A model generated the notes under the pieces. It made no database searches. It was not told where the DNA came from and saw nothing but the letters and a program-made list of their open reading frames with translations. Of a stretch of 64,000 nucleotides of DNA, positions 2,464 through 48,654 are shown piece after piece. A program made the position numbers and the translations under genes. The DNA is from Acidimicrobiia bacterium (GTDB lineage Bacteria; Actinomycetota; Acidimicrobiia; Spongiisociales; UBA5794), in assembly GCA_036396535.1 (NCBI GenBank), contig DASWKR010000035.1, positions 62,001-126,000 on the forward strand, in the 5' to 3' direction. The first letter of the stretch is position 1. Each line of letters begins with the position of its first letter.

Positions 2464-3212
2464 GCGGCGTGCAGAGCATCGAGCGGGCATTCGCCATCCT
2501 CGAAGCACTCGCCGCCGGCCCGGCGGGCGTCACCGAGCTCGCCGAGCTCATCGCTCTCCCCAAGTCGACCGTGGCGAGGATCCTCGGCACCCTCGCAGAC
2601 CTGGGAGCCGTCGAGCGCGTCGACCAGTCGACGGACTTCCAGATCGGCCAGAGCCTGGCGGGCCTGGCAGGCGTCTCGAGCGCCGCGGCCACAATGGTGG
2701 TCGCCGTGCGGCCGGTGCTCGACAAGCTCGCCTCCGAGATCGGCGAGGCGGCCGAGTTCAGCGTGCCGGAGGGATACCTCATCCGCTATCTCATCCAGGT
2801 CGAGAGCCCGAGCCCCGTGCAGGTGCGCGACTACACCGGGCTGCTGTCACCGCTCCACGTCGTCCCGGCCGGGTTGTGCGTCATGGCCCACTGGCCGAAC
2901 GAGGAGCTGGAGCGTTACCTCGCTCGGCCACTCGAGGCATACACCGCCAAGACGGAGACCAGGCCGGCCCACATCAGGCGCCGGCTGGAAGGCATCCGCC
3001 AGGCCGGTTGGGCGTGGCAGCACGAGGAGTTCGCCGAAGGGATCAGCTCGGTGGCCGCGCCCGTCTTCGACCAACTCGGGAGGATCGCCGGGGCGATCAC
3101 GGTTCACGGTCCGACGTACCGATTCCCCGGTTCTCGTCGTTCCGAGGAGATCGCCCGATTCGTCTGCGACTCGGCGCAGCGCTTCTCGGTGAGAGCGAGG
3201 ACCCCCTCCTAG
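2460..3212 (+). CDS. IclR-family transcriptional regulator
   Basis: A 250-residue protein starting at a GTG that overlaps the RACo stop (GTGA). Residues ~1-65 are a winged helix-turn-helix, with SIERAFAILEALA followed by TELAELIALPKSTVARIL. The rest is the IclR effector domain, including GLCVMAHWP, a RQAGWAWQHEEFAEGISSVA segment and a small-molecule pocket. IclR proteins usually respond to a carbon source or intermediate. Because it is the third gene of the methyltransferase/RACo unit, the likely target is this C1 operon itself, sensing the methylated substrate or a product. That target is inferred from position only. Confidence 0.88.
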   Translation: MSGVQSIERAFAILEALAAGPAGVTELAELIALPKSTVARILGTLADLGAVERVDQSTDFQIGQSLAGLAGVSSAAATMVVAVRPVLDKLASEIGEAAEFSVPEGYLIRYLIQVESPSPVQVRDYTGLLSPLHVVPAGLCVMAHWPNEELERYLARPLEAYTAKTETRPAHIRRRLEGIRQAGWAWQHEEFAEGISSVAAPVFDQLGRIAGAITVHGPTYRFPGSRRSEEIARFVCDSAQRFSVRARTPS

Positions 3213-3219
3213 ACCTGCC

Positions 3220-4020
3220 CTATGAGCCGTCGGCGAAGAGCGACCTCTCCAGGTCGCCGCCCTCGAAGACAGGCTTGCGCCTCGCGAACCACTCCTCACC
3301 GAAGGCCACACGGAACACGTCATCGGGGAGCTGGAGCCACCAGGAGCCCTCGGCGATCTGGCTGGCGTGCGCCGCCATGGCCTGGCGCTTGCGCTCCACA
3401 TGTCCCGAAACGTCGACCACCGTCGTCAGCTCGTCCTCAGGCAGCCCGAGGTCGTCGAACGAACCCTCTTCATCCTCGTCCCAGCCTTCCAGGCCGGCGG
3501 CGACGGCTGCCTCGGCGAGGGCGGCGACCCTGTCACGGTTGATCGTCGACTCGTACACCCGCGGCGTGCCGGCGACCTCTGCGGCGCGGGCTCCGACCCG
3601 GTGGACCTGGATGTGGTCGGGGTGACCGTAACCACCATTGGCGTCGTAGAAGGTGACGACGTCTGCCGTCTCCTCCATGAGGATGGCGGCCAACCGGTGC
3701 GCCGCCTGTTCCACTTCCGCCTGCCAGAAGGCATCCGGATGAGCGTTCGACTCGGCTCCCATCATGCCCGAGTCCCGATATCCGAGGAACTCGACCCTGG
3801 CGACCCCGAGGAGCGAGGCGGCTCGCAGCGTCTCCTCTCTGCGGCGGTCACCGAGACTCTCCCCCGACGTCAGGAAGCCATCCTCCACCTCGCCCTCCTC
3901 GCCGGAGGTCGCCACGACGAGCACGACACGGTGACCCGCCGCGACGGCCCTGAGGACCGTGCCGCCGACCCCGATCGCCTCGTCGTCCGGGTGGGCGTGG
4001 AAGGTGACGAGCGTTGCCAT
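3220..4020 (-). CDS. PIG-L/LmbE family zinc deacetylase, MshB/Mca-like
   Basis: A 266-residue protein. The zinc site is clear: AHPDDEA at residues 9-15 and GHPDH near residue 135. In actinobacteria these enzymes remove acetyl from GlcNAc-inositol (MshB, mycothiol synthesis) or cut mycothiol conjugates (Mca). The length fits either, and the sequence alone does not decide. The ATG at 4020 is chosen because MATLVTFHAHPDDE is the family's usual beginning. The frame stays open 15 codons further up. A TAATCT box 10 bases before the ATG suggests a short or absent leader. The gene converges on the IclR gene with only 7 bases between them. Confidence 0.8.
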   Translation of the reverse strand: MATLVTFHAHPDDEAIGVGGTVLRAVAAGHRVVLVVATSGEEGEVEDGFLTSGESLGDRRREETLRAASLLGVARVEFLGYRDSGMMGAESNAHPDAFWQAEVEQAAHRLAAILMEETADVVTFYDANGGYGHPDHIQVHRVGARAAEVAGTPRVYESTINRDRVAALAEAAVAAGLEGWDEDEEGSFDDLGLPEDELTTVVDVSGHVERKRQAMAAHASQIAEGSWWLQLPDDVFRVAFGEEWFARRKPVFEGGDLERSLFADGS

Positions 4021-4050
4021 GGAAGCGGAGAGATTAGGGTCGGAACCGAC

Positions 4051-4078
4051 AGAGCCCGCTCCCATGAGAGCGGGCTCT
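4051..4078. terminator. Perfect 10-bp hairpin, terminator-like or 5' regulatory
   Basis: AGAGCCCGCT at 4051-4060 pairs exactly with AGCGGGCTCT at 4069-4078 around an 8-base loop. There is no T-run. It sits about 300 bases after the end of the secreted-protein gene and 30 bases before the PIG-L start. It could end transcription of the former or shape the promoter region of the latter. Confidence 0.5.
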
Positions 4079-4270
4079 GAGACAGTTCGGGAGCGGCAGT
4101 TGGATCACCACTGCGCACAGTGCGTATTGGTACAACCACTCCCGTGTCGTGCCGGGGACGGTCCGGCTCCCGCCGGGCCGTCACTCCAAATCGTGAGCCG
4201 GCCCCGATCGCTAGAGCGTGGGAACATCCTCCGCAGAGAAGATCGGCATCGGCAGGCGGAAAGTTGAGTC

Positions 4271-4323
4271 CATCCGGTCGAAATCTGCCCATCCGGCCGA
4301 AATCTGCCCATGCCGAAATCTGC
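4271..4323. repeat. 19-bp tandem repeat, about 2.8 copies
   Basis: Two copies of CATCCGGYCGAAATCTGCC lie head to tail (4271-4289 and 4290-4308), differing at one base. A third, shortened copy CATGCCGAAATCTGC follows (4309-4323). The array lies 51 bases past the stop of the secreted-protein gene. Its role is unknown. Confidence 0.75.
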
Positions 4324-4374
4324 AGAGCCTCCGACGCGCCGAGGGCAGGCGCCGTGGCCCCCCTCGAGCGTCGG

Positions 4375-6273
4375 TCAGCCGGGCCGGTTGACGACCACGC
4401 CGACGAGTTCCGACGCGTGCGCTCCCGCGGAACGGGACGACCAGTTCGTCACCCGGCGCACCTCCCGCATGTCGTCGTCCATGCTCGTGATGCCGCCGCG
4501 CGGCCCGATCCAGTACATGGCGTCCTCGGCGGCGTTGTATGCCATCGCCTCGATGTTGCCCGAGCCGACGGCACCGCCCGACACCTCAACGATACGGCTC
4601 GGTCGTAGTCCCGTCTGGGTCACGAGGGCCTGTCCGACGGACACGGAAGGCTCGGCGAAGCGGTAGACCTCGTCGTGGCCGTTGTCCCAGATCTCGAGGT
4701 ACCACGTGCCCGAGCCGCTCCGGTAGGCGGAGAGGTCCTCGACGTCGGCCCAGGATGACACCGCACCCGCCGCGCCAGATTCCTCGAACTTGCCCCGCCA
4801 CGCCAGGCGATCGTTCACGCTGTCGATGGCGAACAGCATGAAGCCGTCCGGGTGCTGGGAGTCGTGGTCGATGATGAACCAGTGGATGCCCGGATTTCTG
4901 CGCGACACGAACATGCCCGAGAGGCCGTCGCGTGCCCCGGCGAGGCTGGCGGCGTTGTACTCGAACTGCGACCTCCTCCCGTCGTTCGTCGAGACGCTCC
5001 TCCCCGGACCGTATGCGAGGTCGTAGCTGTACACCGAGCTGGCGGACGACCCGGCGCTCCCCTCGCCGGCGACGTACACGGTCCTGCCGTCCGCAGACAG
5101 CGCGACGTTCTCGCCGTCGTGCGACTCGATCACCTCGGAGAGGTCGGGTTGCGGATCGGATGAGATCCGGTCGGACCACCTCGAGGCGCTCCCCAGCCGA
5201 TGGAACAGGCTCGCCCGGTGGTCCCCCGCCGACGTCTGTTGCACGACGATCGTCGAACCGTCGCTCGATATGTCCATGGCTCCTGCCGTGTTCGGGGTGT
5301 CGAGCAGGACCGGCGATGCGCCGGGCGGATCGTCAGGGGGGTCGGCCGGCGGCTCGGTCGTGGTCGTCGTGGGCGGCGGCTCCGTCGTGGTCGTCGTGGG
5401 CGGCGGCTCCGTCGTGGTCGTCGTTCCCGGCGGCTTCGTCGTGGTCGTCGTTCCCGGTGGTTCCGTCGTGGTCGTCACCGGCGGCTCCGGGTTCACGCCT
5501 CCGACGTACTTCCAGGCCGAGCCGGACACGCGCCATGGCATCTTGATCGCTCCGTTGGCCCACGTGTCGTATGGGCGACGGGTCTCGTACCCGTTCTTCG
5601 GGTTGCGAAAGTTGACCATGATCACGGGATCGCCCGTGGCCGCCGTGCCGCTCGTGTACAGATGCACGTAGTACAGGTCGCCTCGGAACGCCTCACGCCC
5701 CTCGCCGCGCGCTCCTATCACCCATGGCGCGTGCACCCCGCGATTCAGCGAAACCGCCGCCTTCCGCTCGTGGGAGGCGATTGGATCGCCCCATCCGATG
5801 TTCGGGATGTATGCGTCGGCGGGGGCGCTCGACTTCCACACGGTGAGCTTCGCGCCCTTCTTGCTCTTGGCGTCGAACTGCAGCCGAAGCCAGGCACCTT
5901 TGCCATCGCTGAGGCCGAGCCGCCTGGCGTACGCCGAGAATGCGTGGTCCCTGCCGGCGGCATCGTGGATGATGAGCTGCAGGTCACCTTGAGGGGCCAC
6001 CTGGAGCTTGATCGTGTTGGCCACTGCAGAACCGGGCCATTGCGACAGGATGACCTGGCGCTGCGGGGATGACCAGTCGTCGGCGGCTGCGTAGAACACG
6101 ATCTCGATATCTCCCGAGCCGACCCCCGTTCCGGATGCAACGACGTGGGTGCCGGAGCCCGAAACCGTCAGGTGGGGGGTCTCGGCAGAGAGGGCAGCCG
6201 GAATGGCAACGGCGAGCGCCGCCGCCAGGACGAGCGCCGCCGCGCTGAACCGGTGACGAAAGAGAAACGACAT
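4375..6273 (-). CDS. Secreted LamG-like / beta-propeller protein with Thr-Pro-Glu linker
   Basis: A 632-residue protein. Residues 1-~28 are a signal peptide (MSFLFRHRFSAAALVLAAAL, then a small-residue cleavage site). Residues ~30-245 resemble a LamG/concanavalin-type beta-sandwich, with LYYVHLYTSG and IMVNFRNP strands. Residues ~250-310 are a spacer of nine-residue TTTTTEPPx repeats, a common stalk in surface proteins. The C-terminal ~320 residues carry WD/TolB-like repeats (MDISSDGSTIVV, VALSADGRTVYVAG), probably a beta-propeller. The ATG at 6273 is chosen because the signal peptide begins there. No sortase motif or C-terminal membrane anchor is visible. It probably binds carbohydrate or protein outside the cell. 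A sigma-28/WhiG-like promoter lies upstream. Confidence 0.75.
   Translation of the reverse strand: MSFLFRHRFSAAALVLAAALAVAIPAALSAETPHLTVSGSGTHVVASGTGVGSGDIEIVFYAAADDWSSPQRQVILSQWPGSAVANTIKLQVAPQGDLQLIIHDAAGRDHAFSAYARRLGLSDGKGAWLRLQFDAKSKKGAKLTVWKSSAPADAYIPNIGWGDPIASHERKAAVSLNRGVHAPWVIGARGEGREAFRGDLYYVHLYTSGTAATGDPVIMVNFRNPKNGYETRRPYDTWANGAIKMPWRVSGSAWKYVGGVNPEPPVTTTTEPPGTTTTTKPPGTTTTTEPPPTTTTTEPPPTTTTTEPPADPPDDPPGASPVLLDTPNTAGAMDISSDGSTIVVQQTSAGDHRASLFHRLGSASRWSDRISSDPQPDLSEVIESHDGENVALSADGRTVYVAGEGSAGSSASSVYSYDLAYGPGRSVSTNDGRRSQFEYNAASLAGARDGLSGMFVSRRNPGIHWFIIDHDSQHPDGFMLFAIDSVNDRLAWRGKFEESGAAGAVSSWADVEDLSAYRSGSGTWYLEIWDNGHDEVYRFAEPSVSVGQALVTQTGLRPSRIVEVSGGAVGSGNIEAMAYNAAEDAMYWIGPRGGITSMDDDMREVRRVTNWSSRSAGAHASELVGVVVNRPG
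5348..5488. repeat. 27-bp tandem repeats coding the TTTTTEPP stalk
   Basis: About five imperfect copies of a 27-bp unit built on ggctccgtcgtggtcgtcgt. On the minus strand each copy encodes a nine-residue PPxTTTTTE unit. Copy number is likely to vary between strains. Confidence 0.85.
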
Positions 6274-6575
6274 GGCGGTTCCGGTCCCTTCTTCCTGAAC
6301 CTCTGTCGGTCGATTCGGAGGAGGACCGGCGGCAATGCCGGAAACCACGCTCCGTGACCTCTTCTGGGGGTCTATCGGCCCAGTCGGGTGGTCCCTTACC
6401 GATTCTTCCCGCCGGTGGAGGACGACCTCGCGCCGACTCCGGGCGATGATGCGAGGTCCGCCACAAGGAGCGTGTTAAGAGGCACTCTCGGTGTTCCTAA
6501 CGAAGTGGCGCCCTTCCTACCAGGCATTTCCGGGAACCGAGCCCGCATCGCCCTGCCCGCCCGGACCGTGGCCGC
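6274..6575. other. 302-bp upstream region of the secreted-protein gene
   Basis: No gene. Minus-strand leader of about 90 bases (6274-6366) preceded by the sigma-28-like promoter at 6372-6398. An imperfect inverted repeat built on GTTAAGAGGCAC and GTGTTCCTAAC lies at about 6473-6501. I did not find riboswitch signatures. Confidence 0.5.
6372..6398 (-). promoter_or_regulatory. Sigma-28/WhiG-type promoter: TAAG-N15-GCCGATAG
   Basis: Reading the minus strand, TAAG (6398-6395), exactly 15 bases, then GCCGATAG (6379-6372). The FliA/WhiG consensus is TAAA-N15-GCCGATAA, so 10 of 12 positions match with the exact spacing. It points at the secreted-protein gene, with a predicted start near 6366 and a leader of about 93 bases. 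Confidence 0.65.
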
Positions 6576-6763
6576 ATGTTCGATGTGCAGGCGTGGCTTG
6601 TGGGCCTCGCCGTCACGCTCGCCATCGCCACGGTCACGTGGCTGGTGGCCTCGCCAAGAGCAACGCCCGGATCATCGACGCTGTGTGGTCGCTGATGTTG
6701 GTCGCGGCGGCCCTGGCGTACACCGCTCTCACGCCTGCTCCATCGGAGCGGGACCGGCGCTGA
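6576..6763 (+). pseudogene. Frameshifted N-terminal remnant of a DUF1295 (steroid-reductase-like) membrane protein
   Basis: From the ATG at 6576 the frame gives MFDVQAWLVGLAVTLAIATV and then TWLVAS before drifting to a stop at ~6693. One frame over, the same stretch continues as LAKSNARIIDAVWSLMLVAA and ends at 6763. Joined with one base restored, this reads as the first helix and the S-L-x-x-x-x-x-x-I-D-x-x-W segment typical of DUF1295. The rest of the ~260-residue family is missing. The remnant stops 27 bases before the end of the convergent DinB gene. Confidence 0.5.
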
Positions 6764-6790
6764 CCGCGGTCGACGACGGATCGGGCGGCG

Positions 6791-7318
6791 TCACTCGCCG
6801 GTGAGCCCGTCGACGGCTTCCCTGATGAGGTCGAGGTGGCCGTTGTGTCTCGCCGTCTCCTCGATCATGTGAACGAGGATCCACCGCAGGCTGAACGGCT
6901 CCCCGGTGGCGCGACTCCGCTTCACGGACAGCTGTTCGAGGGGTAGGCCGGCGGCAGCGGCACGACTGCGGGCGCACGACTCCTCGTACAGCGAGACGAG
7001 GTCGGCCGGCTCGTCGTCGACCGCCGAGTGGAAGTCCCAGTCCTCGTCCTCCTCGAACGGGGCACTCGCCCACGGTTCCGGGAGCTCCGCTCCCAGGAGG
7101 ACGGACTGGAACCAGTTGTCCTCGACGAGGGCGAGGTGCTTCACGATCCCGGACGCCGTGAGCGAGGAGGCCGCCACGGTCCTGAGCGCCTGCTCGTGAT
7201 CGAGCCCGGAGTACTTCCACAACACCGTCGCCCGGTGGAAGTCGAGGAACGAGGCGAGCGTCGCCTGCTCGTCCGCCGCCAGGGGCGGGTTTGGTCGATC
7301 GGCTTCCGAGTACGGCAT
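6791..7318 (-). CDS. DinB-family (DUF664) protein, putative thiol-dependent enzyme
   Basis: A 175-residue four-helix DinB/DUF664 protein. The three metal-binding histidines of the family are visible: the first in GIVKHLALVEDNW, the others in HMIEETARHNGHLDLIR. In actinobacteria many such proteins are mycothiol-dependent transferases or isomerases, which would agree with the PIG-L deacetylase 3 kb away. The exact reaction is not predictable. The start MPYSEADRP at 7318 is conventional, and the gene stands alone, with 54 bases between its start and the end of the sigma-factor gene. Confidence 0.8.
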   Translation of the reverse strand: MPYSEADRPNPPLAADEQATLASFLDFHRATVLWKYSGLDHEQALRTVAASSLTASGIVKHLALVEDNWFQSVLLGAELPEPWASAPFEEDEDWDFHSAVDDEPADLVSLYEESCARSRAAAAGLPLEQLSVKRSRATGEPFSLRWILVHMIEETARHNGHLDLIREAVDGLTGE

Positions 7319-7372: not shown

Positions 7373-8701
7373 TCACGTGAGTCGACCTCCGACCTCGACG
7401 ATCCGGCGCTGCAGGAACTCACGCTCCACCTCGTTCGACGCGAGGACAAGGGCCTTCTGGTAGGCGCGCAGTGCCGAGTCGTCGTCGCCGTGCCTGCGCA
7501 GCAGATCGGCGCGCGCCGCATGGAAGAGGTGGTAACCGTCGAGGTCGGCGGCGAGAGGCTCCATCTCGCTGAGCCCTGCCGACGGCCCTGCCGCCATCGC
7601 CACCGCCACGGCCCGGTTGAGAGCCACGACCGGGCCCGGCTGCAGGCGATGGAGCGAGTCGTAGAGCATCACGATCTGCTGCCAGTCGGTGGCGTCCGGC
7701 CGAGGCGCGGTGGCGTGGAGCGACGCGATCGCCGCCTGCACCTGGTAGGGACCCGCCCTGCCCGCCTCGAGCGCCCGATCGAGCAGATCGGATGCGGCTG
7801 CGATCTCGAGGCGGTCCCAACGCGAGCGATCCTGGTCCTCGAGCAGCACCAGTGTCCCGTGCTCGACCCTCGCCGCATGGCGCGAATCGTGGAACATCAT
7901 GAGGGCGGTGAGGCCGAGGGTCTCCGGCTCGCCCGGCATCAGCGAGGCCAGCATCCTCCCGAGCCTGATCGCCTCGCTGCAGAGGTCTCTCCTCACCATC
8001 TGGTTGCCGGACGTCGCCGAGTAACCCTCGTTGAAGATGAGGTACACCACTGCGAGCACGGACTCGAGTCGAGCCGGGAGGTCGGCCGCCGGAGGAACCC
8101 GATAGGGAATCGCCGCGTCGCGGATCTTGCGCTTGGCGCGCACCAGTCGCTGCGCCATGGTGGGCTCCCCGAGGAGGAACGCCCTTGCGATCTCACCCGT
8201 CGTGAGGCCGCCGAGGGTCTTCAGGGTGAGCGCCACCCTGGCCTCCATCGACAGCGCCGGATGGCAGCAGGTGAAGATGAGGCGAAGCCGATCGTCCTCG
8301 ACAGCCGTTTCGCCTATCGCCTCAGCCACGTCGTCACTCCGATCCAACTCGACGAGGTGGGCCAGCTCCTCCTGCTTCCTGGTGTAATTGGTCGCCCGAC
8401 GCATGCGGTCGATCGCCTTGCGACGAGCCGTCGTGGTGATCCACGCCGCCGGATTGGCGGGCTGCTCGACCTGCCAGGCCACGAGCGCCGTCGCCAGCGC
8501 ATCCTGGACCGCCTCCTCTGCGACCTCGAAGTCGCCCGAGTCGCGGATCAGCGTGGCCAGGACGCGCCCGTACTCCTCACGGAAGACGCGCTCGACGGCG
8601 CGTGCCGCGGCCGCCCGATCAGGACTCGTCTGCCCACTCCCACAGCGGCCGGATCTCGACCGAGCCGTACTTCGACCCCGGCAAGTCTGCGGCCACCGCA
8701 A
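7373..8701 (-). CDS. ECF42-type RNA polymerase sigma factor with C-terminal TPR-like extension (start uncertain)
   Basis: About 410-442 residues. The N-terminal ~170 residues carry region 2 ([15 protein letters not shown], then the [12 protein letters not shown] stretch) and region 4 ([20 protein letters not shown]). The remainder is the DUF6596/TPR-like extension typical of ECF42 ([11 protein letters not shown], then the [14 protein letters not shown] stretch and [11 protein letters not shown]). The protein must begin near [13 protein letters not shown], but no ATG, GTG or TTG is in frame between the DGPF stop and that point. The nearest is TTG at 8701, inside the DGPF gene, and it is used here. 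The DGPF gene upstream overlaps it and is the usual ECF42 partner. Confidence 0.85.
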
Positions 8702-8975
8702 TAGCCTCGTCGAGATCGCCCGCCTCGATGAGGTAGAAGCCGCCGAGGGTCTCCTTCGTCTCTGCGAACGGACCGTCGGTCGTGACCGTCTCGCCGTCGC
8801 GTACCCGCACGGTGGTGGCGGTCTCGACTCCGAGGAGCGCCTCACCGCCGAGGTTGCGTCCCGACTCGGTGAGGTTCTTCGTGAACTCGGCGTAATCGGC
8901 GTAGCTCTGCTGTTGCGACTCGGGGTCGGAAGGGACGCTCGCATCGTCCGTGTAGATCAGCAAGGCGTATCGCAT
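8619..8975 (-). CDS. YCII-related DGPF protein, partner of the ECF42 sigma factor
   Basis: A 118-residue protein of the YCII/DGPF family. It begins [12 protein letters not shown] and contains the name-giving [20 protein letters not shown]. The ATG at 8975 has an AGGAG Shine-Dalgarno 6 bases away, better than upstream starts. DGPF genes are characteristic neighbours and presumed targets of ECF42 sigma factors, and their biochemical role is poorly known. Here the gene precedes and overlaps the sigma gene, so the two are one operon. Confidence 0.85.
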
Positions 8976-9011
8976 CGCGTGCTCCTGTCTTCTCGGCTGC
9001 GACGTCATGAC

Positions 9012-9038
9012 GACGAACGAGGCGGCGCCCATTCGACA
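9012..9038 (-). promoter_or_regulatory. Putative ECF42-type promoter: TGTCGA-N17-CGTC
   Basis: Minus-strand TGTCGA (9038-9033), 17 bases, then CGTC (9015-9012). This agrees with the -35/-10 pattern I recall for ECF42 target promoters. It would start transcription near 9005, about 30 bases before the DGPF start, so the sigma factor would drive its own operon. Confidence 0.5.
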
Positions 9039-9114
9039 CCTGTTTGCCAAGCTAGCCGACCGGTGTCGGACGGCTCATGCCTCATCCACCGCGCCCGACG
9101 GCGCGCCCCTCACC

Positions 9115-38571: not shown

Positions 38572-40044
38572 ATGGGCCACGACACACGAACCTGTGAGCA
38601 CTGCGTCGCGGCGCGGCGCGCCGAGACGGCGCCCGATCGTCCCCCGGCGTGGGTATCCGAGGCGGTCTTCTATCAGATCCTCCCCGACCGGTTCGCCATG
38701 TCGGACGAGGTCCCCAAGCCGGGACCTCTGCACCCGTGGGACGAACCGCCGACGTTTCACTCCTACGCGGGCGGCGATCTCGTCGGGATCATCGAGCACC
38801 TCGACCACCTCGAGCGACTCGGAGTCAATGCGATCTACCTCAACCCGATCTTCAAGTCGGCCTCGCCGCACCGCTACCACACTCACGACTACTACGCGGT
38901 GGACACGATGCTCGGGGGCGCAGCAGCACTCGGCGACCTCCTCGGCCGGTGCCACTCCCGAGGCGTCCGCGTCATCCTCGACGGCGTCTTCAATCACGCC
39001 AGCCGCGGCTTTCTCCAGTTCAACGACATCGCCGAGAACGGGCGCAGCTCGCCGTACTGGGATTGGTTCCACGTCCACGACTGGCCGCTCCTCCCGTACG
39101 ACGAGTCGCGACCCCCGGTCTACGAGGCCTGGTGGGGAATGAAGGCGCTGCCGAAGTTCAACACCGAGAACCCCCTGGTCCGCGAGTACCTGATGGCGGT
39201 GGCGGAGCACTGGACGGGTGTCGGGATCGACGGCTGGCGCCTCGACGTGCCGGAAGAGATCAAGACGGAGGGGTTCTGGGAGGAGTTCCGGGCAAGGGTG
39301 CGTGCCGTCAACCCCGACGCCTACATCGTCGGCGAGGTGTGGAGCCCGGGGTCGCCGCTGTGCACAGACGGGAGGCGACTCGACGGCGCCATGAACTATG
39401 CGCTCGGCAGCGCCATCATCTCGTTCACGGCCGGGGAGCGAATCGACCCGGCGCTGCGCATCGGCAACCCGTGGTACGACCTCTCGCCGAGCGACGCCGC
39501 CGGGTACGCCTCGCGTGTCGAAGCCATCCTCGGCAGCTATCCCGGCCACGTGAACCTCGCCAACCTCAACGTGCTCGACTCGCACGACACCGCCCGCATC
39601 CTCAGCGTGGCAGGCGGCGACAAGGACACGGTGCTGCTGGCGGCGTTGCTCCAGCTGACCCATCCGGGGGCGCCGTGCATCTACTACGGCACCGAGGTCG
39701 GGCTGCCGGGAGGCCTCGACCCGGACAGCCGGAGGACGTTCCCGTGGGACGAGGCTCGATGGGATCACGATCTGTTGGACGCCTACCGCGACCTCGTTGC
39801 TCTCAGGGCTTCGACGGGTGCGCTGCGGTCCGCCCGATACTCGACGGTCTACGCCGACGGACAGGTGCATGTGAGCCTGCGCGGCGACGGCCCCGAAGCC
39901 GTATACGTGCTGGTGAACGCGGGAACCGAGACGGTGGCCGTCCCCCTCGAGGCGGCCGGCACCCTCCTGTGGGGGGAAGCCGTCGTCCAAGGCGGGACGA
40001 TCAAGCTGGCGCCGCGTCGCGGGGCGGTCCTCTCCTCGTCGTAG
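38572..40044 (+). CDS. GH13 alpha-amylase-family glycosidase (neopullulanase/maltodextrinase-like)
   Basis: A 490-residue cytoplasmic enzyme. It contains VFYQILPDRFAMSDEV near residue 33, the catalytic nucleophile in GIDGWRLDVPEEI near 225, the acid/base in YIVGEVWSP near 257 and the third Asp in NVLDSHDTARIL near 340. DPDSRRTFPWDEARWD near 385 is typical of maltodextrin-hydrolysing GH13. No signal peptide. It begins with a CEHCVAARR segment whose CxxC pair could bind metal, not a normal part of the family. It likely degrades maltodextrins or glycogen fragments. Confidence 0.88.
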   Translation: MGHDTRTCEHCVAARRAETAPDRPPAWVSEAVFYQILPDRFAMSDEVPKPGPLHPWDEPPTFHSYAGGDLVGIIEHLDHLERLGVNAIYLNPIFKSASPHRYHTHDYYAVDTMLGGAAALGDLLGRCHSRGVRVILDGVFNHASRGFLQFNDIAENGRSSPYWDWFHVHDWPLLPYDESRPPVYEAWWGMKALPKFNTENPLVREYLMAVAEHWTGVGIDGWRLDVPEEIKTEGFWEEFRARVRAVNPDAYIVGEVWSPGSPLCTDGRRLDGAMNYALGSAIISFTAGERIDPALRIGNPWYDLSPSDAAGYASRVEAILGSYPGHVNLANLNVLDSHDTARILSVAGGDKDTVLLAALLQLTHPGAPCIYYGTEVGLPGGLDPDSRRTFPWDEARWDHDLLDAYRDLVALRASTGALRSARYSTVYADGQVHVSLRGDGPEAVYVLVNAGTETVAVPLEAAGTLLWGEAVVQGGTIKLAPRRGAVLSSS

Positions 40045-40082
40045 GCGAGGCCGTGTCGCGATTCGATCGGACCGGACGTACC

Positions 40083-43000
40083 ATGAGCGGGATGGCAGCA
40101 GGGGCTCCCACCTCCGAGTTCGACGCGCCGATCGCGAGCGAGGCGTTCGGGGGAAACACCTGGCTCGTCGACCAGATGTACCGGCAGTATCTCGACGCCC
40201 CGAACTCGGTGAGCGCGGCCTGGCAGGACTTCTTCTCGGACTACCGGCCTGGCGCGACGGTCTCGCCGCCGGTTCCGCAGAGGGAGACGGCGGTCCCGCT
40301 CGGTGAAGGCAACGGCGGCTCGACGACCACCGAGGCGCCGTCGCCTGTTCCTGTGGCGCCATCACATGCTCCCGAGGCGCCGCCGCTTCCCGACTTCGCG
40401 GTCCCGACCGAGCTCAAAGGGGCGCCGGCGACGATCGCACGGCGCATGGAGGAGTCGCGAGACATCCCGACTGCCACGTCGGTTCGGACGTTCCCGGCCA
40501 AGCTGCTCGAGGTCAACCGACGCATCATCAACAACCAGCTCGCCCGGCTGGCCGATGGCGGCAAGGTGTCATTCACCCACGTGATCGGGTGGGCGGTGGT
40601 GCGCGCCCTGCGGGAGCACCCCGACATGAATGCCGCCTACCGGCTGATGGACGGCAAGCCGCACCGCATCCAATACGAGCACATCAACCTCGGTCTGGCG
40701 ATGGACATGGAGCGCAAGGACGGTGGGCGAACCTTGCTCGTGCCGAACATCAAGTCAGTCGACACGATGGACTTCAAGAGCTACTGGGAGGCGTACGAGG
40801 ACGTCGTCCGCCGCGCCAGGTCGGGCGACATCACCCCGGACGACTTCGCCGGCACGACGGCAACACTGACGAACCCGGGCACCGTCGGCACCGTGCAGTC
40901 CGTCCCGCGGCTCATGACCGACCAAGGCGTGATCGTCGGGGTCGGCGCCATCGGCTTCCCGCCGGAGTACGAAGGGTCCGACCCCCAGACGATCGCCATG
41001 GCGGGCATCGGTCGGACTCTCACGATGACGTCGACGTATGACCACCGCATCATCCAGGGTGCCGAGAGCGGCACGTTCCTGGCCAGGGTGCACGAACTAC
41101 TGGTTGGTGCCGACGACTTCTACGACGAGATCTTCCAGTCGATGGCGATCCCCTACGTCGCGGCGAGATGGGCCGTCGACTCCAATCCCCCTCCGGGGAG
41201 CCGACCGTGGGCGGAGAAGCAGGCCCGGGTGTTCCAACTCGTGAACATGTACCGCGTTCGCGGTCACCTCATCGCCGACCTGGACCCGCTGCGCCAGACC
41301 CCTCCCAAGATCCATCCCGAGCTCGATCCCCTCACCTATGGCCTCACCCTGTGGGACCTCGACCGGGAGTTCGCCACCGCAGGGTTGGCAGGCAAGGAAC
41401 GGATGAAGCTGGGCCAGATCCTCGGCGTCGTGCGCGATGCCTACTGCCGCTCGGTCGGCATCGAGTACATGCACATCCAGGAGCCCGATCAGAAGCTGTG
41501 GATCCAACAGCACGTCGAGGACACCCCCGCCGAGCTCGAGCCGGAGGAGAAGCGCAGGATCCTCCAGAAGCTCAACGAGGCGGAAGCGTTCGAGCGTTAC
41601 CTGCACACGAAGTTCCTGGGCGCCAAGCGGTTCTCGCTGGAGGGCTCCGAGTCACTCATCCCGCTGCTCGACGCCATCCTCACCGCATCCGCCGAATCCG
41701 GGATGCAAGAGGTGGCGATCGGAATGGCCCACCGCGGTCGCCTCAACGTGCTCGCCAACATCATCGGAAAGAGCCTGGTGTCGATCTTCAGGGAGTTCAC
41801 CAAGTCGGACGACGCAGCAGCCGACCCGACTTTCTCGGGTGACGTCAAGTACCACCTCGGCGCCGAAGGCATCCACCGAACGCCCGACGGCGCCCAGATC
41901 GACGTGCGCGTCGTCGCCAACCCGAGCCACCTCGAGGCCGTCGACCCGGTCCTCGAGGGGTTCGTGCGAGCCCGGCAGGATGCCCTCGGCTCCGGCGCCG
42001 ACGACCTCGTGCTTCCCCTCCTACTCCACGGCGACGCCGCCTTCTCCGGCCAGGGCGTGGTGGCCGAGACCCTCAACCTCTCTCAGCTCGGGGGCTACTA
42101 CACGGGTGGAACGGTCCACATCGTCATCAACAACCAGGTCGGGTTCACGACGTCGAGCCTCGACGCCCGCTCGAGCTTCTATGCGACCGACATCGCCAAG
42201 GCGGTCCAGGCGCCGATCTTCCACGTCAACGGGGACGACCCCGAGGCAGTGGTGCGTGTCGCCCGGATCGCCTTTCAGTTCAGGCAGGCGTTCCACAAGG
42301 ACGTGGTCATCGACTTGGTGTGTTACCGGCGCCATGGCCACAACGAGGGAGACGAGCCGACGTACACCCAGCCCCGCATGTACAAGCTCATCGAGAACCG
42401 CATGTCGGCGCGCAAGGTGTACCTCGACCGCCTCGTGCGCAACGGCGAGTTGACGATCGCCGAGGGGGAGGCGGTCCTCGACAACTTCAGGCGGCTCCTC
42501 GACACCGCCCTCGATGCGACGAAGCAGGCCCCGATCCGAGAGGCCGTCCGGCAAGAGCCCCACCCTTCCGGGTTCCCGGACACGAGGATCCCCGCCGATG
42601 TCGTCGAGCGCATCCAGAGGAGACTGCGTGCGCTTCCCGACGGCTTCACCGTGCACCCGAAGCTGGCGCGGCAGCTCCAACAGAGACACGAGCTGGCGGC
42701 TGCCGGCTACGCCGACTGGGCCTTGGGCGAGGCCATCGCTTTCGGGTCACTCGCCATCGAGGGTCACTCCGTTCGCCTGGCGGGTGAGGACTCCCAGCGT
42801 GGCACGTTCAGCCACAGGCACGCCGTCCTCGTCGACTACGAGACCGAGGAGGAGTACACACCGCTGGCGAACATCGACCCGAACCAGGGGACGATCAGGA
42901 TCTACGACAGCCTGCTCTCCGAGTTCGCCGCGGTCGGGTTCGAGTATGGGTACTCCGTCGGCGCCCCCGAAGCGCTCGTCATGTGGGAGGCGCAGTTCGG

Positions 43001-43721
43001 CGACTTCGTGAACGGCGCCCAAGTCGTCATCGACCAGTTCCTCGTGTCGGGAGCCGACAAGTGGCACCAGAGCTCGACGCTCGTGCTCCTGCTGCCACAC
43101 GGGTTCGAGGGCCAGGGACCGGAGCACTCATCGGCACGCGTGGAGCGGTTCCTCCAGAACGCCGCCGAGGACAACATCAGGGTGGCGGTGCCCTCGACCC
43201 CGGCGCAGCTCTTCCACATGCTGCGAAGCCAGGTTCACCACGAGTCGAAGGCCCCGCTCATCGTCATCGCCCCGAAGTCGCTGCTGCGGACGAAGGAGAC
43301 CTACAGCCCGCTCGCCGACTTCAGCGAGAAACCGTTCCAGCCGGTCATCCCGGACGACCAGGTCGCCGCAGGCGCCAAGCGGGTGATCCTGTGCTCCGGC
43401 AAGGTGTACTACGACCTGGTGCGGTATCGGGCCGAGCACGCCGTCGACGACGTCGCCGTGATGCGCGTCGAGATGCTCTACCCGTTCCCCGCTCAGGCGA
43501 TCCTCGACGCCCTCAAGCCGCACGACGGGGCCGAGCTCGTCTGGGTGCAGGAGGAGCCGGCCAACATGGGCGCCTGGCGCTTCATGTCGCGCAACCTCTT
43601 CGTGAACGCCGCCCTGCCGTCCCGCGGCATCTATCGCAAGGAGAGCGCCAGCCCGGCGACCGGAAGCGCCGCCACCCACGCCAAGGAGCAACAAGCCCTG
43701 ATAGAGCTGGCCTTTCAGTAG
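40083..43721 (+). CDS. kgd: Multifunctional 2-oxoglutarate decarboxylase/dehydrogenase (KGD)
   Basis: A 1212-residue enzyme, close to mycobacterial KGD (~1230). It has an N-terminal peptide WLVDQMYRQYLDAPNSVSAA, a flexible linker to residue ~105, then an E2-like acyltransferase domain with THVIGWAVVRAL near 163 and the catalytic TYDHRIIQGAESG near 318. The thiamine-diphosphate E1 domain follows, with IGMAHRGRLNVLANIIG near 548, HGDAAFSGQGVV near 650, and GGTVHIVINNQVGFTTS. No lipoyl domain. It replaces separate SucA/SucB in the TCA cycle. A TACCAT box 7 bases before ATG 40092 suggests that codon 4 may be the true leaderless start. Confidence 0.95.
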   Translation: MSGMAAGAPTSEFDAPIASEAFGGNTWLVDQMYRQYLDAPNSVSAAWQDFFSDYRPGATVSPPVPQRETAVPLGEGNGGSTTTEAPSPVPVAPSHAPEAPPLPDFAVPTELKGAPATIARRMEESRDIPTATSVRTFPAKLLEVNRRIINNQLARLADGGKVSFTHVIGWAVVRALREHPDMNAAYRLMDGKPHRIQYEHINLGLAMDMERKDGGRTLLVPNIKSVDTMDFKSYWEAYEDVVRRARSGDITPDDFAGTTATLTNPGTVGTVQSVPRLMTDQGVIVGVGAIGFPPEYEGSDPQTIAMAGIGRTLTMTSTYDHRIIQGAESGTFLARVHELLVGADDFYDEIFQSMAIPYVAARWAVDSNPPPGSRPWAEKQARVFQLVNMYRVRGHLIADLDPLRQTPPKIHPELDPLTYGLTLWDLDREFATAGLAGKERMKLGQILGVVRDAYCRSVGIEYMHIQEPDQKLWIQQHVEDTPAELEPEEKRRILQKLNEAEAFERYLHTKFLGAKRFSLEGSESLIPLLDAILTASAESGMQEVAIGMAHRGRLNVLANIIGKSLVSIFREFTKSDDAAADPTFSGDVKYHLGAEGIHRTPDGAQIDVRVVANPSHLEAVDPVLEGFVRARQDALGSGADDLVLPLLLHGDAAFSGQGVVAETLNLSQLGGYYTGGTVHIVINNQVGFTTSSLDARSSFYATDIAKAVQAPIFHVNGDDPEAVVRVARIAFQFRQAFHKDVVIDLVCYRRHGHNEGDEPTYTQPRMYKLIENRMSARKVYLDRLVRNGELTIAEGEAVLDNFRRLLDTALDATKQAPIREAVRQEPHPSGFPDTRIPADVVERIQRRLRALPDGFTVHPKLARQLQQRHELAAAGYADWALGEAIAFGSLAIEGHSVRLAGEDSQRGTFSHRHAVLVDYETEEEYTPLANIDPNQGTIRIYDSLLSEFAAVGFEYGYSVGAPEALVMWEAQFGDFVNGAQVVIDQFLVSGADKWHQSSTLVLLLPHGFEGQGPEHSSARVERFLQNAAEDNIRVAVPSTPAQLFHMLRSQVHHESKAPLIVIAPKSLLRTKETYSPLADFSEKPFQPVIPDDQVAAGAKRVILCSGKVYYDLVRYRAEHAVDDVAVMRVEMLYPFPAQAILDALKPHDGAELVWVQEEPANMGAWRFMSRNLFVNAALPSRGIYRKESASPATGSAATHAKEQQALIELAFQ

Positions 43722-48540: not shown

Positions 48541-48654
48541 GTCTGCGTCCCTACTGGCCAACTGGGATGACATCGGCAGGAACGATACGAGACTTGATGC
48601 TGAGAGTGGTGGATCTCGGCGATGACCGTCACACTGAGTGGCGGCGAGTGTGGG

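Follow-up and report, generated by a model that had tools for sequence, protein, structure and literature searches.

A site at positions 6372-6398 of a 64,000-nucleotide stretch of Acidimicrobiia DNA (the window), upstream of a gene for a secreted lectin-like protein, is likely to be a promoter of the sigma factor WhiG. Judging from sequence comparisons, WhiG would run a surface-motility set in this bacterium that includes pilT and a CheA hybrid, and the lectin-like protein would be made along with it.

A sigma-28-type site upstream of a gene for a secreted protein

On the minus strand, positions 6398-6372 read TAAG-GGACCACCCGACTGG-GCCGATAG, with a spacer of exactly 15 bases. The flagellar promoters of E. 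coli FliA and B. subtilis SigD have the form TAAA-N15-GCCGATAA. The site shares their two-part element and spacing and agrees with their consensus at 10 of 12 positions, so that the description of these elements in an earlier note on this DNA holds throughout. The clade consensus derived below differs from the flagellar one (YAAG-N15-NYCGATAN, with the last position often C or T), and no flagellum genes were found in this genome. The ATG at 6271-6273 (minus strand) of the 632-aa secreted protein is co-directional with the site and lies 98 nt past the end of the -10 element, a gap longer than in most members of the putative regulon. In this genome and its relatives, several genes look leaderless, with starts 7-9 nt beyond the same -10 element, and the transcription start in Table 1 is predicted on this basis. 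Note that start codons are our choices from ORF scans.

A matrix built from the pilT promoters of other genomes gave this site the highest score on either strand of the window (18.96; next 16.14). Two GATG-type sites in the window, at 48571 and 54039 (minus strand), were weaker and were set aside because they looked poorly placed relative to genes. Upstream of the promoter, a possible gene remnant lies at 6576-6765 (plus strand): the fragment resembles the beginning of a membrane protein of the DUF1295/steroid-reductase type and seems to be both frameshifted and truncated.

Table 1. Features of the promoter region and of the downstream gene (window coordinates)
Feature	Position	Strand	Basis or remark
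-35 element TAAG	6395..6398	-	sequence; clade consensus YAAG
-10 element GCCGATAG after 15-base spacer	6372..6379	-	sequence; clade consensus NCCGATAN
Predicted transcription start, 6-8 nt past -10	6364..6366	-	inferred from leaderless-looking genes
Predicted 5' UTR, ~91 nt	6274..6364	-	no Rfam family, folding ordinary
Purine-rich AGGAAGAAGGGA, candidate ribosome-binding region	6285..6296	-	sequence
632-aa secreted protein	4375..6273	-	signal peptide ~6184-6273
N-terminal LamG/CBM40-like lectin fold, residues ~34-222	5608..6174	-	predicted structure; homologues in A1
TTTTTEPP repeat linker	5320..5484	-	sequence
C-terminal beta-rich region, propeller-like but unproven	4375..5319	-	Pfam Phytase-like 17.6 bits, below cut-off

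The genome encodes a single FliA/WhiG-family sigma factor

The earlier note had proposed a search for a FliA/WhiG sigma gene, on which its promoter reading depended. One such gene scores above the curated cut-off in the genome (G000:C65, L036:7542-8336), in the gene order dprA-xerC-whiG-fic-rpsB-tsf. The protein easily clears the FliA/WhiG subfamily model TIGR02479 (265.7; cut-off 189.6) and passes the WhiG equivalog model NF004935 by a narrow margin (343.6 bits; cut-off 343). Its best match in the PDB is the S. venezuelae RsiG-WhiG complex (6pfj; E 3.8e-82), with regions 2 and 4 aligned and region 4.2 nearly identical to that of WhiG in this structure.

FlhA was not found in the genome (it is present in 12 of 60 relatives), and the bacterium is therefore apparently non-flagellated. 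Among the 28 larger ORFs of the window that were scanned, no flagellar or chemotaxis family was detected, in agreement with the earlier note. A strict-motif DNA pattern search of the genome for RsiG returned only an in-frame match to a DivIVA-like coiled coil and a doubtful antisense frame; diverged motifs would escape this search, and its outcome is compatible with the presence of RsiG. RsiG has been reported in three of four Acidimicrobiales species (PMC8325347).

The clade form of the consensus is enriched in the genome

A pattern search with the literal consensus TAAR-N15-GCCGATAR gave site 6372-6398 as the sole match without mismatch in the 3,134,566 bases of the genome. With one mismatch allowed, 8 matches were obtained in the genome versus 5 for the reversed pattern, a difference that is not significant, and exact matches in 149 relatives showed no excess over the control. 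Thus, on the evidence of the earlier note alone, the site could have been a chance occurrence. As the literal form was not enriched, we substituted the clade's own consensus, YAAR-N16-CCGATA, a form chosen after inspection of the pilT promoters of relatives and not from site 6372-6398. The same two elements at 30 other spacings served as control.

The genome contains 10 YAAR-N16-CCGATA sites, versus 60 over the 30 control spacings (mean 2.0, maximum 6), corresponding to a Poisson P of ~5e-5. Every one of the ten carries G in position four. Three of them have the TAAG form, always upstream of an ORF, versus one such match over all 30 control spacings. The counts for the whole genome were obtained solely by pattern searches, in an assembly that is 96% complete.

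WhiG-type sites precede pilus and chemosensory genes

Nine of the ten sites are located 7-121 nt ahead of an ORF on the same strand. Their targets are coherent in function and, as assigned by Pfam, are pilT (the pilus retraction ATPase), a single-domain CheY-like response regulator, two sensor kinases, a DUF3352 protein, a BON-OmpA protein with a solute-binding protein downstream, a DivIVA-domain protein, an Hpt-HATPase-CheW-receiver hybrid (the CheA hybrid) and the gene in the window. No GGDEF/EAL proteins (c-di-GMP enzymes) were found among the eight other targets scanned. The tenth site (C35:187762), located within an ORF, is probably a chance match. The earlier note had expected further sites before other secreted TTTTTEPP proteins. 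Further sites do exist, but they precede pilT, chemosensory and signalling genes instead, and the company of this probable promoter is a set of type IV pilus and chemosensory genes, similar to that of Rubrobacter.

The pilT gene of this genome carries TAAG-N15-GCCGATAC 43 nt before its start (C2:1216-1242; one mismatch to the literal consensus). Upstream of pilT in 37 relatives, YAAG-N15-NCCGATAN is found at a near-constant distance, with a leave-one-out score of at least 12.8 in 34 of the 37. For the CheA hybrid, which was outside the training set of the matrix, ~22 of the 24 relatives that were informative have YAAG-N15-NYCGATA upstream of the start, at a distance of ~25-42 nt. In this genome the pilB-pilB-pilC-pilin operon also has a site, CAAG-N15-GCCGATGT, which is weaker and lies 50 nt before pilB. 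Relatives have exact literal sites directly upstream of pilT (L063, L071), of a pilX-like gene (L064), of a response regulator gene (L076) and of genes for secreted proteins, the gene names being our reading of the translations. Separately, in L053-L057 (family f5 of the order) two uncharacterized gene families are preceded by a conserved TAAG-N15-GCCGATAA whose spacers are AT-rich; this is probably a further regulon of the WhiG type.

The lectin-like protein and its homologues

The 632-aa protein had been described as a secreted, stalked surface protein with LamG and propeller domains. The signal peptide, the LamG/lectin-like domain and the TTTTTEPP linker of this description were found, but the C-terminal propeller was not confirmed. 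The terms 'stalked' and 'surface' fit the signal peptide and the linker; however, no membrane or wall anchor is visible. The AlphaFold2 model of the lectin-like domain is of moderate confidence (pLDDT 67) and has a jelly-roll fold that matches LNS and CBM40 domains (TM 0.4-0.56; Foldseek E 5.7e-6 to neurexin LNS). Pfam LamG gave no match in the 632-aa protein. The single-sequence fold of the C-terminal half reached a pLDDT of 39, too poor for use.

No second protein of this kind was found in the genome. Homologues are rare: at 1e-6, a match was obtained in 6 of the 137 other genomes analyzed from the order. Four of the six are from the same family, with one match being a fragment; the other two belong to a different family and match weakly. 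Upstream of the homologues in three genomes we found CAAG-N15-CCCGATCA with a score of 8.4, which was equalled in 26-28 of 200 shuffles and is not significant singly. A second homologue copy (L048/L207) in one of these three genomes is preceded by (T)AAA-N15/16-CCCGATAG (score 11.7; 6 of 200 shuffles). These sites lend weak backing to the promoter reading. In two relatives the homologue is divergent from an adjacent ORF, which by its translation looks like a sugar transferase of the exopolysaccharide type, and a role in the matrix would fit this arrangement.

Three further observations concern this gene. In three related genomes, the region ahead of the lectin-like gene has a conserved block, TGCTCAAGARCACTC...CCCGATCAMCACTC (L039 ~1200-1400, and L040 and L041); within it, the direct repeat ACACTC could be a regulator site. 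A short peptide stretch encoded on a haloarchaeal contig (L208, Halorientalis persicus) shares 49% identity with the lectin-like domain (E 1e-4). Between the lectin-like and PIG-L genes of the window, positions 4048-4083 form a GC-rich inverted repeat, AGAGCCCGCTCccatgaGAGCGGGCTCT, perhaps a terminator without a T-run.

Alternative explanations

Site 6372-6398 might resemble a promoter by chance and be unused, even if pilT and the chemosensory genes are under WhiG control. About 2 matches to YAAR-N16-CCGATA are expected per genome, the one at C35:187762 falls within an ORF, and the sites upstream of the homologues are weak. In contrast, the controls predict ~0.03 occurrences of the TAAG form per spacing, but there were three, each of them ahead of an ORF, and no other position in the window scores as highly with the matrix. 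We therefore regard a chance resemblance as unlikely. We give slightly less credence still to the idea that another sigma factor drives the gene from a site missed by simple scans, either the housekeeping factor or the neighbouring ECF sigma (7373-8944, minus strand). The gene for this ECF-type sigma, which carries DUF6596, does lie ~1.1 kb upstream, and consensus scans often miss actinobacterial promoters because of their degeneracy. However, a scan of window positions 3200-6800 found no sigma-70-type -35/-10 pair, and ECF sigmas of the DUF6596-carrying type usually drive their own neighbourhood. As a side observation, a small YCII/DGPF-type-like ORF precedes the ECF-type sigma with its DUF6596 tail (7373-9050, minus strand), the usual ECF42-like pair.

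That the conserved-looking stretch is an RNA element (a riboswitch or leader) and not a promoter is very improbable. AUCGG...CCGAU could pair across the site, but there was no Rfam match, folding was no better than that of shuffled sequences (z -0.87 and 0.12), and the same -35/-10 pair recurs ahead of unrelated genes with unrelated spacers. With a WhiG-family sigma present, further sites in the genome and the fit to the matrix from other genomes, a WhiG/sigma-28-type promoter, as originally suggested, is the best reading of the site.

A putative WhiG regulon for surface motility

We propose that the single FliA/WhiG-type sigma of the genome, WhiG, would bind and read site 6372-6398. In this non-flagellated actinobacterium WhiG would also control pilT, the CheA-CheW-receiver hybrid kinase, the CheY-like regulator, the sensor kinases and the OmpA/BON protein, and, given its weaker site, probably the pilB operon. 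The lectin-like protein would then be produced together with the pilus/chemosensory set; it is probably extracellular and may act in adhesion or matrix binding.

In Streptomyces, WhiG is a sporulation sigma under RsiG-c-di-GMP control. The sigma factor described here matches the same equivalog model and has a near-identical DNA-binding region, and control by c-di-GMP and RsiG may operate here as well. In contrast to Streptomyces, the targets are pilus and chemosensory genes, not sporulation genes, and RsiG was not found by its strict motif. A closer parallel is Rubrobacter radiotolerans, where the starts of WhiG promoters have been mapped: three lie within the pil cluster and five precede c-di-GMP enzymes (PMC8325347). 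Both are cases of WhiG in a unicellular actinobacterium, although of different classes, with flagellar-type promoters before type IV pilus genes (here pilT, and pilB with its weaker site). They differ in that the set here comprises pilT, the CheA hybrid, kinases and the lectin-like protein, in that its starts are predicted, and in that its ten targets include no c-di-GMP enzyme. In Actinoplanes, zoospore pili have been described as under FliA-family control (cited in PMC8325347). FliA/WhiG-type sigma factors thus direct pilus genes there too, but Actinoplanes is filamentous with flagellated zoospores, whereas the genome analyzed here has one WhiG and lacks FlhA.

That WhiG can control pili is already known, while the Acidimicrobiia-type regulon and its lectin-like target appear to be new. 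Within one family, the conservation of WhiG-type sites upstream of both pilT and a chemosensory kinase suggests a common surface-motility programme. We lean towards the view that WhiG is the master sigma of twitching and chemosensing in non-flagellated Acidimicrobiia-type actinobacteria, with pilT and the CheA hybrid as the core to which lineages would add their own secreted lectin-like adhesin. If so, pilus control, not sporulation, would be the older role of WhiG. The regulon would tie an unstudied secreted protein to a definable gene set and offer a sequence-only route to the role of WhiG before its use in Streptomyces sporulation.

Other observations

Searches of viral contigs and phage records gave no match to the searched DNA. 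In one relative (L010), a DNA match of 28 bases fell inside a gene that reads as anthranilate synthase and was dismissed as chance. Elsewhere in the window, positions 38649-43721 (plus strand) carry a 1690-aa ORF, a Kgd-type fusion of 2-oxoglutarate dehydrogenase and acyltransferase.
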